Origin: Adhaeribacter aquaticus DSM 16391
Lineage (GTDB): Bacteria > Bacteroidota > Bacteroidia > Cytophagales > Hymenobacteraceae
Assembly (NCBI RefSeq): GCF_000473365.1
Contig: NZ_KI421517.1
Span: 1,385,363 to 1,449,362 of the forward strand
Reading direction: 5' to 3'
Length of the DNA: 64,000 nucleotides
Shown here: positions 1 through 13,473 of the stretch, piece by piece
Layout: each line of letters begins with the position of its first letter
Numbering within the stretch: the first letter of the stretch is position 1
Made by a program: the position numbers and the translations under genes
Notes under the pieces: generated by a model
What the model was told of the DNA's origin: nothing
The model's database searches: none
The model's input: only the letters and a program-made list of their open reading frames with translations

Positions 1-2
1 TT

Positions 3-38
3 TCGGAAATAGCTAAACTAAAAGCAGGAGCTGAATAA
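3..38 (+). CDS. C-terminal end of an upstream gene (partial)
   Basis: The only frame open into the window from its left edge reads ...SEIAKLKAGAE and stops at TAA 36-38. The tail is too short to identify. It matters mainly because the hairpin array that follows would then sit in this gene's 3' untranslated region, on the same strand. Confidence 0.4.
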   Translation, partial: SEIAKLKAGAE

Positions 39-79: not shown

Positions 80-363
80 GATGAACCCGTAAGTTCATCC
101 CCTGCCTTTAGGCTGAGCCCGTAAGCTCTCCTGTTTAACCCACCATGAACCCGTAAGTTCATGAGCAAAAAGATAAACCTGTAAGTTTATCCTGATTTAT
201 ATAGGCCCGTAAGCCTGATAACACAATGATAAGCCCGTAAGCTTATTCTCCTAAAATAAAGTGTGCCCGTAAGTATACTTTCTAATCCAGTGCCAGCACC
301 AGGGAGCCTGAGAGCTCCTTGTGCCAAGTAAAAAAAGGTGAACCTGTAAGTTCACCTTTTTTT
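80..363 (+). repeat. Array 1 of GNRA-loop hairpins (9 units)
   Basis: Nine short inverted repeats share a six-base loop. Loops start at 87, 119, 151, 179, 207, 235, 267, 308 and 344, so spacing is 32, 32, 28, 28, 28, 32, 41 and 36. Loops are CCGTAA (six), CTGTAA (two) and CTGAGA (one), always between a C-G closing pair. Stems of 4-13 bp differ from unit to unit yet stay paired, for example GATGAAC/GTTCATC at 80-99 and CATGAAC/GTTCATG at 144-163. The unit at 259-280 pairs only if two G-T wobbles are allowed, which points to RNA. The last four loop bases are always GNRA. All copies have the same orientation. Function unknown. Confidence 0.85.
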
Positions 364-366
364 ATT
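331..366 (+). terminator. Terminator-like last unit of array 1
   Basis: This is the longest stem of the array: 13 bp (331-343 with 350-362) around the loop CTGTAA, running straight into a T tract. It has the form of an intrinsic terminator, so the array would be the 3' end of a transcript. Confidence 0.7.
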
Positions 367-636
367 TAATGTCTCCTCAAGTTTTAGTTTGTGCTATTAC
401 CTTACAGGCTGAACTCCAATATAACCTTACCGGCAATAGCTTTATATAAGCCTTACAAAGAAAACAATTATTGCAATTAGTGTAAATTGTCACTGGTTCA
501 GAGAAAAGCCCATAGTACAGGCGTAGTCTGACAATTTTTAAGTTACTATATCCTGAAGAAGTATACTACACTGAAAAAATTTCATTTCAAGCTCCTGTTT
601 GTAGCTGGTATTCTGTCAAAAATTCATTTTTTTAAA

Positions 637-653
637 TTGGCATTTCACTTGTT
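637..653 (+). promoter_or_regulatory. Sigma-54-like promoter of the Hsp20 gene
   Basis: TTGGCATTTCACTTGTT carries GG at 639-640 and GT at 651-652, the exact 12-base offset of a -24/-12 promoter; the usual -12 GC is GT here. The rest of 367-709 shows no gene. The same architecture lies upstream of the next gene at 1319-1335. Confidence 0.45.
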
Positions 654-696
654 ATAAGCAAGTTGTTAAAATTAATCATAAGTTAAATCTTAAAAT

Positions 697-702
697 AGGA
701 GG
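697..702 (+). promoter_or_regulatory. Strong Shine-Dalgarno site of the Hsp20 gene
   Basis: AGGAGG lies 7 bases before the ATG at 710. Perfect Shine-Dalgarno sequences are unusual in Bacteroidota, and this one fixes the start. It fits a gene that must be translated strongly under stress. Confidence 0.6.
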
Positions 703-709
703 ATTAGTT

Positions 710-1168
710 ATGGGACCTTTAGTGAAGAATAATCGAAGCTTATTTCCAGGCATCCCGTCCTTTTTTGATGATATGTTAACGCGGGATTTGTTTAACTGGC
801 CGATGAACCACAGCAACTCCAATGGTAATTCTGTTCCGGCTGTTAACATAAAAGAAACAAACGATGCCTTTGAATTAGAGGTAGCTGCTCCTGGTATGAG
901 CAAACAAGACTTTAGAATTGAGCTGGACAATAACCTGTTAGTAATTTCAGCTCATAAAGAAGATAAACACGAAGAGCAGGACGAAAAAGGTAACTATGCC
1001 CGCAGAGAGTTCAGTTATCAATCCTTTAGCCGTTCTTTCAGCTTACCTGAAAGATTAGTGAAAGGAGAAGAGATCTCTGCTAAATACATAGATGGTGTTC
1101 TGCACATTACGGTTCCAAAAGCTGAAGAAGCTAAGGTTAAGCCGGCTAAGCAAATAGCTATAGAGTAA
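710..1168 (+). CDS. Small heat shock protein, Hsp20/alpha-crystallin family
   Basis: The 152-residue product is an ATP-independent holdase chaperone that binds unfolding proteins in the cytoplasm. A variable N-terminal arm (about 1-45) precedes the alpha-crystallin domain (about 46-140), which starts at PAVNIKETNDAFELEVAAPG and ends with the typical GVLHITVPK; EEAKVKPAKQIAIE forms the tail. The length is normal for bacterial Hsp20. The gene has an AGGAGG site, a sigma-54-like promoter at 637-653 and its own terminator, so it is probably monocistronic. Family assignment is secure; the stress that induces it is not visible. Confidence 0.95.
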   Translation: MGPLVKNNRSLFPGIPSFFDDMLTRDLFNWPMNHSNSNGNSVPAVNIKETNDAFELEVAAPGMSKQDFRIELDNNLLVISAHKEDKHEEQDEKGNYARREFSYQSFSRSFSLPERLVKGEEISAKYIDGVLHITVPKAEEAKVKPAKQIAIE

Positions 1169-1171
1169 CAG

Positions 1172-1196
1172 AAGGCGGGCTTTCCCGCCTTTTTTA
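1172..1196 (+). terminator. Intrinsic terminator of the Hsp20 gene
   Basis: AAGGCGGG (1172-1179) pairs with CCCGCCTT (1184-1191) around CTTT, followed by a run of T. It lies 4 bases after the stop codon. Confidence 0.9.
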
Positions 1197-1318
1197 TTAC
1201 TACACTTTGGTTAGGGTGATTGTTCTGATTCCGAACATAGCTGTTCGGGTTTAGAACATTTTTATTCTTAATAATATTGAATAAGGGCTTTTTTTTGAGT
1301 TAGGGAACATATTTACAA

Positions 1319-1335
1319 TTGGCACGCAGCTTGTA
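1319..1335 (+). promoter_or_regulatory. Sigma-54-like promoter of the SH3-domain gene
   Basis: TTGGCACGCAGCTTGTA is close to the sigma-54 consensus (TGGCACG, four bases, TTGC), with GG at 1321-1322 and GT at 1333-1334. The implied start near 1346 leaves a leader of about 65 bases before the ATG at 1410. Confidence 0.5.
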
Positions 1336-1409
1336 ATTATGGTAATACAAGCCGATTAAGGCTTGCAAAATGAATAAAAGTATTGTGTAACCAATTGATC
1401 TTTAAAACT

Positions 1410-1685
1410 ATGAAAAAAATTATTTTTACCCTCGCCCTTTTAGTACAGGTTGGTTTTGCTATGGCCAACAACAATGAATTTACTTTAGCAAAAGTTCGGC
1501 ACGAAAACGTTAGAATGTTTCAGCAGGCAGGTACTTCTACTACGGTTGTACAAACACTAAGTACTACTGATAAAATAGAGTATGTGCGTATGTATAACGA
1601 TGAATGGGCTATTGTAATGGTAAACGGAAAGGCCGGCTATGTATTGGTTTCAGAAATTATTAAGCTGAGAACCGAAGCGAAATAA
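1410..1685 (+). CDS. Small exported protein with a bacterial SH3 domain
   Basis: The 91-residue product starts with a signal peptide (MKKIIFTLALLVQVGFAMA, cleavage before NNN). The remainder matches an SH3b fold: a VRMFQQAGTSTTVVQTL strand-turn segment, then EYVRMYNDEWAIVMVNGKAG and YVLVSEI, the usual GYV ending. Such domains often bind peptidoglycan or other proteins in the periplasm. I chose ATG 1410 because a start at the TTG 1383 would put nine residues ahead of a complete signal peptide. It sits between a sigma-54-like promoter and hairpin array 2, which would be its 3' untranslated region. The specific role is unknown. Confidence 0.75.
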   Translation: MKKIIFTLALLVQVGFAMANNNEFTLAKVRHENVRMFQQAGTSTTVVQTLSTTDKIEYVRMYNDEWAIVMVNGKAGYVLVSEIIKLRTEAK

Positions 1686-1720
1686 GGTAGCTTCTAAATT
1701 ATACCCTTGATTCATATATA

Positions 1721-2010
1721 AGCTACCCCGAAAGTTGGCTATCAAAAAGAAGGTAGGGCCATAAGTTCTCCCGTATTAGTGAAAAGTGAACCCGTAAGTT
1801 AGCTTATGATAACCAGACCCGTAAGTCTGTCTGAATTGATAGGGTTCGTAAGTCCTGAAATGCAAGAATAAGGCCGCAGCTTAATACATTTAGAAACGTG
1901 CGCCTGTAAGCTCATTTTCTATTAATTAAATTTCCTAAATACCGAAGAACCCGTAAGTTTTTTAAGTTAATCAGTAGTAAGGCGAACCCGTAAGTTCACC
2001 TTATTTTTAT
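1721..2010 (+). repeat. Array 2 of GNRA-loop hairpins (7 clear and 2 degenerate units)
   Basis: This is the same hairpin type as 80-363, in the same orientation. Clear loops start at 1728 (CCGAAA), 1792, 1819 and 1951, 1988 (CCGTAA), 1846 (TCGTAA) and 1904 (CTGTAA). Degenerate units lie at about 1759 and 1875 and keep the phase, giving spacings of 31, 33, 27, 27, 29, 29, 47 and 37. The stem at 1841-1856 needs two wobble pairs, and 1945-1962 one. The CCGAAA loop is again a GNRA loop (GAAA). Some stems carry single mismatches (1721-1740, 1784-1805, 1898-1915, 1978-2003), so this array looks older than array 1. It follows the stop codon at 1685. Confidence 0.8.
1978..2010 (+). terminator. Terminator-like last unit of array 2
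   Basis: TAAGGCGAAC (1978-1987) pairs with GTTCACCTTA (1994-2003) with one C-A mismatch around CCGTAA, followed by TTTTTAT. As in array 1, the last unit is the longest stem and abuts T-rich sequence. Confidence 0.55.
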
Positions 2011-3273: not shown

Positions 3274-3867
3274 TTATTTTAAAGATAAAAGCTTTCTATT
3301 ATTTGATATTATTTCAATATTGTTAAAGGCAAAATCTCCATCATTAGTTACTATAGGCAGGTTATTTATTTTACAGAATTTGTGGTAAAATAGATCATTA
3401 AAATCTGCATCAAAAGAAAAGCTATTTATAAAATTGAATAAATCGATCTTCTCTGCACTATCATTAAAGATTTGAACATAATCAGAATATGCCAAAAATT
3501 CCGATGAAAATAACTTTACGTCTCTTTCACAATCTTTTGTCTTTCTATAATCTCTTTTAAAGTCATAAATATTTATTTCTGTGTTGGAAAGCTGGCCTTT
3601 ATATATTAATGCTTTCTTAAAATTATTAAATCTAATTCTTAAAAAAGCATTAAAGATTTCTGAGATTAGTAGGGAATTAACAGCAATTAACTTTTCATCT
3701 TTTCTTTGGGATGCAATTAAAGAATCCCAAAAATCTATATATGGCTGTTCAAAATATTGAGGTTGTAAAGGTCTATCAATTATTAATAGCCATACATTAG
3801 CATCAAAAAAATAAAGCCGGTTATCCGGCTTTATTTTTTTGATGTCATAAATTTTATAATTAATCAT
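3274..3867 (-). CDS. PIN-domain nuclease
   Basis: The 197-residue product shows the acidic residues of a PIN ribonuclease: D22 in FFDAN, E70 in LLISEIF, D155 and D158 in DADFND, and D176/D178 in TNDGDF. PIN proteins cut RNA with Mg or Mn and are often toxins. At nearly 200 residues it is longer than a VapC toxin (about 130), with an inserted helical segment around 80-140. Its start overlaps the stop of the STAS-like gene by 8 bases (ATGATTAA), which implies translational coupling. No VapB-like antitoxin is adjacent; the upstream ATPase and STAS-like proteins are the likely control partners (inference). Confidence 0.75.
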   Translation of the reverse strand: MINYKIYDIKKIKPDNRLYFFDANVWLLIIDRPLQPQYFEQPYIDFWDSLIASQRKDEKLIAVNSLLISEIFNAFLRIRFNNFKKALIYKGQLSNTEINIYDFKRDYRKTKDCERDVKLFSSEFLAYSDYVQIFNDSAEKIDLFNFINSFSFDADFNDLFYHKFCKINNLPIVTNDGDFAFNNIEIISNNRKLLSLK

Positions 3868-4207
3868 GAATACCTAATTCTTGATTTCGTGCTGATTCTT
3901 TTATTGCTCTTAAATCTGCATTTAGAGCAAGTTCATAAACTTGTTCTATTTTGTATTTAGTAGCATCATTATCCACATCTTCGATAACCAAAGATTCTTT
4001 AGCTTCTTCAGGTTTAGGTGCAGAAAGTAAGAATCTGCCTATTGCTGCATTTAAAAATGCAGTCGTTACATGTTGAAGACCTTTAAAAGAAAGAACAATT
4101 TTTTCTCCTCTTTTATAGGCGTCTTCTAATTGTTCATAAACTTTACGACCATCTATATCTAGAACAGCAATCGATTTACCTATGATCTGAGATACTGTAA
4201 GCTGCAT
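3860..4207 (-). CDS. STAS-like protein (DUF4325)
   Basis: The 115-residue product carries the DUF4325 signature, a STAS-like fold: VLSFKGLQHVTTAFLNAAIG at about residues 39-58, where the VTTAFLN turn takes the place of the phosphorylatable serine region of anti-anti-sigma factors. STAS proteins act as partner-switching regulators. It lies 82 bases downstream of the GHKL ATPase and overlaps the PIN gene, so it is the middle gene of a three-gene unit. The family call is good; the role as a switch for the nuclease is inferred. Confidence 0.75.
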   Translation of the reverse strand: MQLTVSQIIGKSIAVLDIDGRKVYEQLEDAYKRGEKIVLSFKGLQHVTTAFLNAAIGRFLLSAPKPEEAKESLVIEDVDNDATKYKIEQVYELALNADLRAIKESARNQELGIHD

Positions 4208-4289
4208 ATTTAGATTATTTCTAGTAAGATGAGAGTTTTTGTATTGAAAAACAACACAAACATAATTAAAAGAAATATACGTTGCAATA

Positions 4290-5123
4290 CTACTTACAGT
4301 TGTAGATTAGATGTATAGTTGTGCCAACAAACTCTGATATTCTACGTGTCCCCATTTCGCCAAGATTATTACCCCAATAAGCATCACCAGTAACAATATT
4401 AAAGTGCCCACCGGTCTCTTTACAATGAGTTAAAACATTATGTAGACCAATTCCTCCAGTTTCATCTCTTTCCTTAGTTGTATTGGAGTATTCAACAGCC
4501 CATTTAATAGCTTGTTCTGAGGAAGCGATCTTACCATTTGTAAAAGCTTTTATTGGAGGTAAGAAACCGATACCTAAATCAACGAGGCTAAAGGCTAACT
4601 TAGATTCATTAGGATAAAATTGACCACATGCAAATACTGGGTCTAAAGTCTTTGCATGTTTACTTATGTTGGCAAATACTTCTAAGAAGTTTTCTTCAAC
4701 ACCAGTACAATTTAAGTTTCCCATCTGACTATGACCTAGTAATTGTTCTTTTATATAATTATAAAATTTAACATCCTCCGAACAATCAAACAATTCCATT
4801 TCAACAGTAGAGCCAAGATTATCTTGTAAACTCAGAATTGATGATAAAAAGCCATTTCTAAATAAAATAGGGAATTTATTTCTTACTAGATTAACATCGA
4901 AGTTAAAGGATAGGCAATTGTCCTTATTCAATTTATAAAGGATTGCTTGGAGAACTGCAGATAGATTAGCATCAAACCAGTATAAGTTTGAAAAGTCTAT
5001 ATAGATTATACAATCAAAATATTGTTTACAGTTATTATAAAACTGAATTAATCTATTATGCCCGCTTGCCGTTGTACAAATTTTTCCTTCTAGTGAGACA
5101 CGAATAGTAATAGTAGCTTCCAT
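4290..5123 (-). CDS. GHKL ATPase with N-terminal STAS-like region
   Basis: The 277-residue product combines two regions. Residues about 1-110 look STAS-like (CIIYIDFSNLYWFDANLSAV). Residues about 135-277 form a histidine-kinase-type ATP-binding fold: N box EVFANISKHA with N152, G1 motif DLGIG (182-186), G2 motif GGIGLHNV (223-230). There is no HisKA or transmembrane region, so it resembles an anti-sigma-type or GHKL switch protein rather than a sensor kinase. The three genes are clearly more AT-rich than nrdA next door, which suggests transfer as a unit. No sigma factor gene is nearby. Confidence 0.75.
   Translation of the reverse strand: MEATITIRVSLEGKICTTASGHNRLIQFYNNCKQYFDCIIYIDFSNLYWFDANLSAVLQAILYKLNKDNCLSFNFDVNLVRNKFPILFRNGFLSSILSLQDNLGSTVEMELFDCSEDVKFYNYIKEQLLGHSQMGNLNCTGVEENFLEVFANISKHAKTLDPVFACGQFYPNESKLAFSLVDLGIGFLPPIKAFTNGKIASSEQAIKWAVEYSNTTKERDETGGIGLHNVLTHCKETGGHFNIVTGDAYWGNNLGEMGTRRISEFVGTTIHLIYNCK

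Positions 5124-13400: not shown

Positions 13401-13473
<73 letters not shown>

Follow-up and report, generated by a model that had tools for sequence, protein, structure and literature searches.

We show that two genes for small SH3-like proteins in a 64,000-nucleotide stretch of the genome of Adhaeribacter aquaticus DSM 16391 (contig NZ_KI421517.1, positions 1,385,363 to 1,449,362 of the forward strand; hereafter the window) are each followed by a row of nine short hairpins, referred to as array 1 and array 2, in which the loop is conserved and the stems mainly keep their ability to pair. The two rows align unit by unit, the stems bear the mark of selection on the RNA of the sense strand, and such arrays are limited to one gene family and, among the genomes searched, to one genus. 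The array gives the impression of a messenger-RNA (mRNA) tail of a type not described before, perhaps read hairpin by hairpin by a putative partner. Post-transcriptional control is, to our knowledge, little known in this part of Bacteroidota, and a row of hairpins with a conserved loop is a ready bait for catching a new RNA-binding protein. Furthermore, the paired nine-unit arrays represent a natural experiment in which RNA structure was maintained during sequence drift.

Two hairpin arrays behind paralogous SH3-like genes

The presence of the hairpin arrays in the window was confirmed. A first-pass annotation of the window had described 16 clear units in a single orientation, and all of them were found at the given positions on the + strand (nine in array 1 and seven in array 2); together with two decayed units of array 2, they make up nine units per array. 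The last four loop bases are GNRA in all 16 clear units, as had been stated, and the two decayed units do not fit this pattern. Each array begins shortly past the stop codon of an SH3-like paralogue, and a T-run comes after its final hairpin, which agrees, within the window, with the earlier proposal of a 3' untranslated region (3' UTR) whose last unit serves as the terminator.

A covariance model built from the 16 units recovers, by construction, all of them at 18.1-30.8 bits. In a search of the whole genome with this model (5.17 Mb; in a first look, scores were computed for 150 of 932 candidates), the window units accounted for 16 of the 27 matches at E up to 10, and the best match outside them reached 24.4 bits. 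Array 1 folds far more stably than its shuffles (z = -6.4), and the corresponding signal of array 2 is weak (z = -2.45). Under a strict scan for at least four same-loop hairpins per 300 bases, array 1 stood alone in 464 kb of the genome, although the scan was strict enough to miss array 2 and six of the seven arrays from relatives that were supplied to it. The same 464 kb, roughly 9% of the genome, contain 154 terminator-like hairpins, of which two carry the array loop, both being the array ends, so that the array loop was rejected as a general terminator loop of this genome. One further terminator among the 154 has CCTGTAAG within a larger loop.

Stem covariation and the strand under selection

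In the 16-unit alignment, 81.3% of the 144 stem cells pair, compared with 63.5 ± 2.5% in shuffles (0 of 500 as high), and sliding one stem arm lowers pairing to 24-43%. Changes on both sides of the stem were found in 34 cells (shuffles: 13.0 ± 3.3). Arrays 1 and 2 align one to one, nine units against nine, and the two decayed units of array 2 fall opposite units 2 and 6 of array 1; thus, the gene and its nine-unit array were most simply duplicated as one module. Among the 63 homologous pair positions of the two arrays, 26 pairs are unchanged; in 12 one partner has changed and in another 12 both partners have, with pairing kept in each case; 11 are paired in one array only, and 2 (by subtraction) in neither. 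When the changed 3' letters were redealt, 42.1 ± 1.9 pairs survived against the 50 observed, and 4.0 ± 1.7 double changes arose against the 12 observed; randomizing the sites of the changes gave 32.4 ± 2.8 and 3.0 ± 1.5, respectively. Loops are 78% identical between the arrays (42 of 54) and spacers 49% (47 of 96; Fisher P = 0.0006), while stem identity (58%, 72 of 124) does not differ significantly from that of the spacers (P = 0.22). Stems therefore drift nearly as fast as spacers yet remain paired, indicating that the loop is the conserved part and that the stems mainly need to pair.

The same picture emerged when arrays from relatives were included. Across 41 distinct units from nine arrays in three genomes (45 array units minus four repeats of one unit, found five times and kept once), pairing is seen in 84.0% of the 287 stem cells (57.1 ± 2.0% in shuffles), with both sides altered in 96 cells (36.0 ± 6.1 in shuffles).

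A G-U pair holds in RNA and an A-C pair fails, while a DNA palindrome reads alike on both strands, so the ratio of G-U to A-C tests which strand acts as RNA. In the seven inner pairs of the 18 window units, G-U outnumbers A-C by 15 to 2 (P = 0.0023), and single changes away from a Watson-Crick pair in the window arrays led 12 times to G-U, twice to A-C and seven times to other mismatches. Because of this excess, together with the covariation of the stems, selection is placed on the RNA of the + strand, as had been expected from the first inspection. The opposite strand, on which CCGTAA could be read as a UACG tetraloop, was rejected as the RNA on account of this ratio in the window arrays and because the other loop types, found in 10 of 45 units, fit that reading less well. 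Loop orientation across the nine arrays is sense in 41 of 41 cases and antisense in none.

A probable closed hexaloop

The loops of the 45 array units comprise 35 CCGTAA, six CTGTAA and four single variants, with the last four bases always GNRA, although these counts are biased because our unit finder requires two pyrimidines plus GNRA and a pyrimidine-purine closing pair. The finder returned 54 units in total, of which nine lie outside arrays (four single terminators, the rest apparently chance). With a finder blind to loop sequence, this loop type occupied 25 of the 34 hexaloops closed by five perfect pairs in the array regions and 17 of the 20 closed by six. The closing columns 9 and 16 pair in all 41 distinct units (C-G 39, U-A 1, U-G 1; pairing is favoured by the finder), and the unit with the U-A pair, from one relative (G005), aligns with a C-G unit of another (G001), which amounts to a compensatory change. 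On both grounds, the loop is more likely a C-G-closed hexaloop, with two bases ahead of a GNRA-like part, than a plain GNRA tetraloop, and the docking of a GNRA tetraloop suggested by the first-pass annotation does not hold as worded. The accessible part of a survey of GNRA-like folds (PMC12550061) includes no five-base loop whose extra base sits ahead of the GNRA-like part. A GNRA tetraloop closed by C11-G16 with two bases bulged is possible for most units.

Distribution among relatives

Eight Adhaeribacter genomes contain the SH3-like gene at a total of 45 places, with G000 denoting the genome of the window and G001-G005 and G007 other genomes of the genus. Arrays lie behind nine of the 45 genes (two in G000, four in G001 and three in G005), and a lone hairpin behind seven, of which five are in sense orientation (one in G003, three in G004 and one in G007; one with a variant loop) and two are inverted. 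The inverted cases, near positions 3788884 and 3789927 of G002 contig C1, are terminators of SH3-like genes in which the conserved loop reads from the opposite strand, and both appear by eye to lie near the end of a gene on the other strand. In the protein tree, from which two fragments of the 45 were excluded, five array genes form one clade (91/90) and the other four belong to an unresolved group with single-hairpin genes. The label count on this tree (one change) compares array genes with single-hairpin genes, 29 ungrouped genes being excluded.

The arrays fall into two groups. Stems such as GTGAAC/GTTCAC and a terminator at the end characterize the group of the window. The second group (G001 contigs C2 and C48; G005 contig C52) consists mostly of AGCC(CCGTAA)GGCT and has no T-run, and its last unit is a stretch of about 33 bases that is conserved apart from two variable ones. 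The first units of four G001 and G005 arrays (two per group) have a C-C mismatch in common at the third pair, which hints at common descent. The claim that an array ends in a terminator made from its last unit thus stands for the window's group and fails for five G001 and G005 arrays, whose last unit lacks a T-run. Overall, a T-run follows five of the 45 units, four of them last units. Internal units, one exception aside, are therefore not ordinary tandem terminators, and tandem intrinsic terminators, with a T-run after each hairpin, were rejected as an explanation.

We found no such array outside the genus with a three-loop pattern in 204 genomes of the family and 390 of the order (the latter including three of the eight genus genomes). 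The pattern matched five family genomes, namely G000, G001 and G005 plus two (G025 and G087) in which the matched sequence looks by eye like direct repeats of another kind, and the order added nothing new; a reversed control pattern gave one match in the 204 genomes and two in the 390. Within the genus, all 13 three-loop matches lie within 500 bases 3' of an SH3-like gene. The covariance-model search of relatives that had been proposed gave 25 matches in the eight genus genomes (E up to 0.05), 20 of them within 500 bases behind an SH3-like gene; the remaining five are single hairpins, at least four of which look like terminators by eye. The one-unit pattern GTGARCCYGTAAGYTCAC matched seven of the 204 family genomes, all members of the genus. 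Given the restriction to the genus and the two of 154 terminators, the loop unit is not a repeat spread over the genome, nor is it the loop that terminators usually carry. Outside the genus, four SH3-like genes were found in four of 14 genomes, from two genera, each with an ordinary terminator and no array by eye. Rare single terminators of other genes also carry a CTGTAA loop, at G005 C34:391072 and G001 C46:49625 (L053, L054) and at G003 C1:3581327 (L052).

Gene context and promoter-like sites

The coordinates of units, genes and promoter-like sites are given in Table 1. Judging by eye from their export-like starts, both SH3-like proteins are probably exported. The Pfam SH3 match of gene 2 (E = 2.7e-4) is below the Pfam cut-off. 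Three more SH3-like paralogues occur in the same genome, none with an array. A gene similar to the hsp20 gene of the window was noticed by eye 3' of an array in G001.

Table 1 Features of the two array modules in the window.
Feature	Position	Strand	Remarks
SH3-like gene 1 (end)	1..38	+	full gene L029:18129-18401, 90 aa; SH3_3 E 6.8e-5, under curated cut-off
Array 1 unit 1	80..99	+	GATGAAC(CCGTAA)GTTCATC
Array 1 unit 2	112..131	+	loop CCGTAA; 4 inner pairs, then mismatches
Array 1 unit 3	144..163	+	loop CCGTAA
Array 1 unit 4	172..191	+	loop CTGTAA
Array 1 unit 5	200..219	+	loop CCGTAA
Array 1 unit 6	228..247	+	loop CCGTAA
Array 1 unit 7	258..281	+	loop CCGTAA; 9 pairs including 2 G-U
Array 1 unit 8	300..321	+	loop CTGAGA
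Array 1 unit 9	326..367	+	loop CTGTAA; intrinsic terminator
Sigma-54-like promoter ahead of hsp20	638..651	+	TGGCA-N6-TTG; consensus match only
hsp20 gene	710..1168	+	between both modules; Pfam HSP20 E 6e-23
Sigma-54-like promoter ahead of SH3-like gene 2	1320..1333	+	TGGCA-N6-TTG; consensus match only
SH3-like gene 2	1410..1685	+	91 aa; 75% identical to gene 1; signal-peptide-like start by eye
Array 2 unit 1	1721..1740	+	loop CCGAAA; one mismatch
Array 2 unit 2	1753..1771	+	decayed, loop CATAA; register set by hand
Array 2 unit 3	1785..1804	+	loop CCGTAA
Array 2 unit 4	1812..1831	+	loop CCGTAA
Array 2 unit 5	1839..1858	+	loop TCGTAA
Array 2 unit 6	1867..1885	+	decayed, CCGCA; register set by hand
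Array 2 unit 7	1897..1916	+	loop CTGTAA
Array 2 unit 8	1944..1963	+	loop CCGTAA
Array 2 unit 9	1979..2008	+	loop CCGTAA; terminator with T-run

The pattern TGGCA-N6-8-TTG was found within 300 bases upstream of 27 of the 45 SH3-like genes, which are related and hence not independent in this count, against a background of 0.018 per 300 bases (400 kb of the genome). The published sigma-54 consensus is TGGCAC-N5-7-TTGCT, and the accessible part of the same source names a small heat-shock protein among the members of a sigma-54 chaperone cluster that is enriched in Bacteroidota (PMC12316311). The sigma-54-like sites before the expanded SH3-like family and hsp20 in the eight Adhaeribacter genomes could point to a stress regulon. 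Elsewhere in the window (3274-5123, - strand), three adjacent open reading frames appear by eye to be PIN-like, DUF4325/STAS-like and a histidine-kinase-type ATPase, and this trio may constitute a small cassette with a role in regulation or defence.

Possible function of the arrays

The explanation that we favour, with a confidence falling just short of an even call, is that the array, placed in the mRNA tail, serves as a platform for multivalent binding. We infer that the array would be a 3' UTR row of small hairpins, with the loop C(CYGUAA)G conserved and stems that mainly must pair. A sigma-54-type promoter would drive transcription of this row together with the SH3-like gene, whose small product is probably exported, and transcription would end, for arrays of the window's group, at the final hairpin. 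The row would be bound by a single kind of loop-reading factor, in the simplest case a protein, in several copies, and this binding might set the lifetime of the message, or the message might soak the factor up once the gene is on. A platform is favoured because the loop is kept and the stem free, the units are many, and the row lies on the RNA strand in a message tail, a combination that resembles the repeated binding sites of RsmZ and ANTAR targets. Its most specific form, in which a novel RNA-binding protein of Adhaeribacter gathers on C(CYGUAA)G rows in the tails of sigma-54-type, probably stress-induced mRNAs that act as both message and sponge, is speculative and seems to us doubtful.

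Several observations weigh against such a platform. No loop-reading factor was identified: neither CsrA nor RRM_1 was found in any of the seven genus genomes searched (of eight), and RRM_1 proteins were accordingly rejected as readers. Arrays with this type of loop are lacking behind as many as 36 of the 45 SH3-like genes (arrays with other loops would be missed), and the inverted loops of G002 indicate that the single-hairpin form tolerates inversion. Second-group units pair perfectly over few bases, mostly the common stem AGCC/GGCT, and array 2 and a G001 array are decaying, the latter keeping about three of five units relative to G005. The predicted minimum-energy fold of array 2 omits some of its units, and the folding z of 3' regions does not separate the genes (-5.9 to +0.2 with arrays, -8.7 to +1.9 for the others). 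Finally, the strand test widened to 45 units points in the same direction with 18 G-U against 9 A-C but is weaker and falls short of significance (P = 0.12).

Passive 3'-end protection ranks next and is the main rival, although we consider it unlikely. Here, the hairpin row would slow 3'-to-5' exonucleases and prolong a strongly induced message, the loops being unread, which suits arrays that lie directly before a terminator with their hairpins on the RNA strand. Second-group arrays, placed by eye between the SH3-like gene and the next gene, could likewise give the two differing stabilities. Such armour would, however, need stems and not one particular loop, and the loops are what is best conserved. 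One strong terminator hairpin usually suffices for 3'-end protection, and seven of the 45 sister genes have a single unit.

It is improbable that the arrays are a by-product of replication, in which palindromes multiply by slippage and template switching keeps them symmetrical, so that paired changes arise without function. The unit number that varies among relatives, the decay of some arrays and the loop inversions in G002 would fit this process. Yet mutation of this sort should affect the two strands in much the same way, while the window arrays have a large excess of G-U over A-C and the loops of nine arrays are 41 sense to 0 antisense; the nine units are, moreover, collinear between both paralogous modules. 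Still less probable is regulated termination, in which an antiterminator of the ANTAR kind binds the hexaloops, so that transcription can read through the final hairpin to the following gene. Serial hexaloops, the last of them in a terminator, and hsp20 downstream in G000 and G001 would suit it, but A at position 1 with G at position 4, as in ANTAR hexaloops, occurs in none of the 34 hexaloops of the nine arrays (loop-blind finder), and hsp20 has its own promoter-like site.

Mobile palindromes of the repetitive extragenic palindrome (REP) or bacterial interspersed mosaic element (BIME) type, handled by a RAYT (TnpA_REP) transposase, are already contradicted and hardly credible: Y1_Tnp (RAYT-like) genes occur at 15 places in G000, G001 and G005, one about 0.7 kb from a G005 array, but only this one of nine arrays is near such a gene, whose own flanking hairpins differ, the array loop is at none of the six other RAYT-like loci read (of 14 others found), and the units are not dispersed and show an RNA-strand bias. 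The RAYT-like gene itself (G005 C53, L099:14295-14822, - strand) has a Pfam match below cut-off, REP-like flanking hairpins of its own and, by eye, motifs of Bacteroidetes subclass 2.6 as described in the accessible part of the source (PMC6006769).

Comparison with known RNA elements

The first-pass annotation knew no described family of this form, and indeed no Rfam family matches the arrays. At the gathering score, Rfam 15 identified only a tRNA (13401-13473) in the whole window, and over 1-2100 at E up to 1 it gave six matches, all far under the cut-offs. Searches of open-access texts for tandem hairpins in bacterial 3' regions and for Adhaeribacter RNAs brought up no such element. The RNA repeats of type III toxin-antitoxin systems are near-identical, and the array units, compared with this general description, are not.

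The comparisons below follow the accessible portions of the cited papers. RsmZ consists of four stem-loops plus a terminator (PMC4005645), and the flaA mRNA titrates CsrA, so that an mRNA can act as a sponge (PMC4894983). The arrays, too, are serial hairpins with a short conserved loop motif. In contrast to CsrB and RsmZ, they form the tail of a coding message, and GGA occurs in none of the 45 array loops from the motif finder and in one of 34 from the loop-blind finder. CsrA/RsmE (PF02599) was detected in none of the seven genus genomes searched, with three of 14 controls positive. A strict CsrB-type sponge was rejected, as no GGA is present in the 45 units and no CsrA was found in the seven genomes.

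The eut targets of ANTAR proteins (the sequestering EutX/Rli55) have serial hexaloops, the second overlapping a terminator, and stems that are needed whatever their sequence; the first base of these hexaloops is A and the fourth is G (PMC8934654). A stem-closed six-base loop is also found in the arrays, although our finder favoured the closing pair. Both bases together were absent from 34 hexaloops closed by five pairs and from 20 closed by six, a test that rests on the loop-blind finder since the motif finder excludes A at position 1 by design, and a strict ANTAR target was rejected on the 34. Furthermore, the arrays differ in reaching nine units and in lying in the 3' rather than the 5' region.

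REP and BIME elements are short intergenic palindromes, often clustered (PMC3733652), and the arrays likewise are clustered short palindromes between genes. They differ in having a conserved loop and a free stem, no dispersal and no common GTAG/CGTC tag: neither tag is present on either strand in 80-363 (array 1), and 1721-2010 (array 2, nine units) contains GTAG twice and its complement once. With dispersal, tag and RAYT association all lacking, REP/RAYT elements were rejected. Phage boxB is a small hairpin whose GNRA-like loop is recognized by a peptide, and a hexaloop is known from phi-21 (PMC12550061). The array units are also small hairpins with a GNRA-like loop, and the arrays differ from boxB in loop sequence, unit number and position. 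By anatomy, the arrays are a new form of the multi-hairpin, loop-read RNAs; should the reader prove to be a new protein family, the finding would exceed a variation on that theme.

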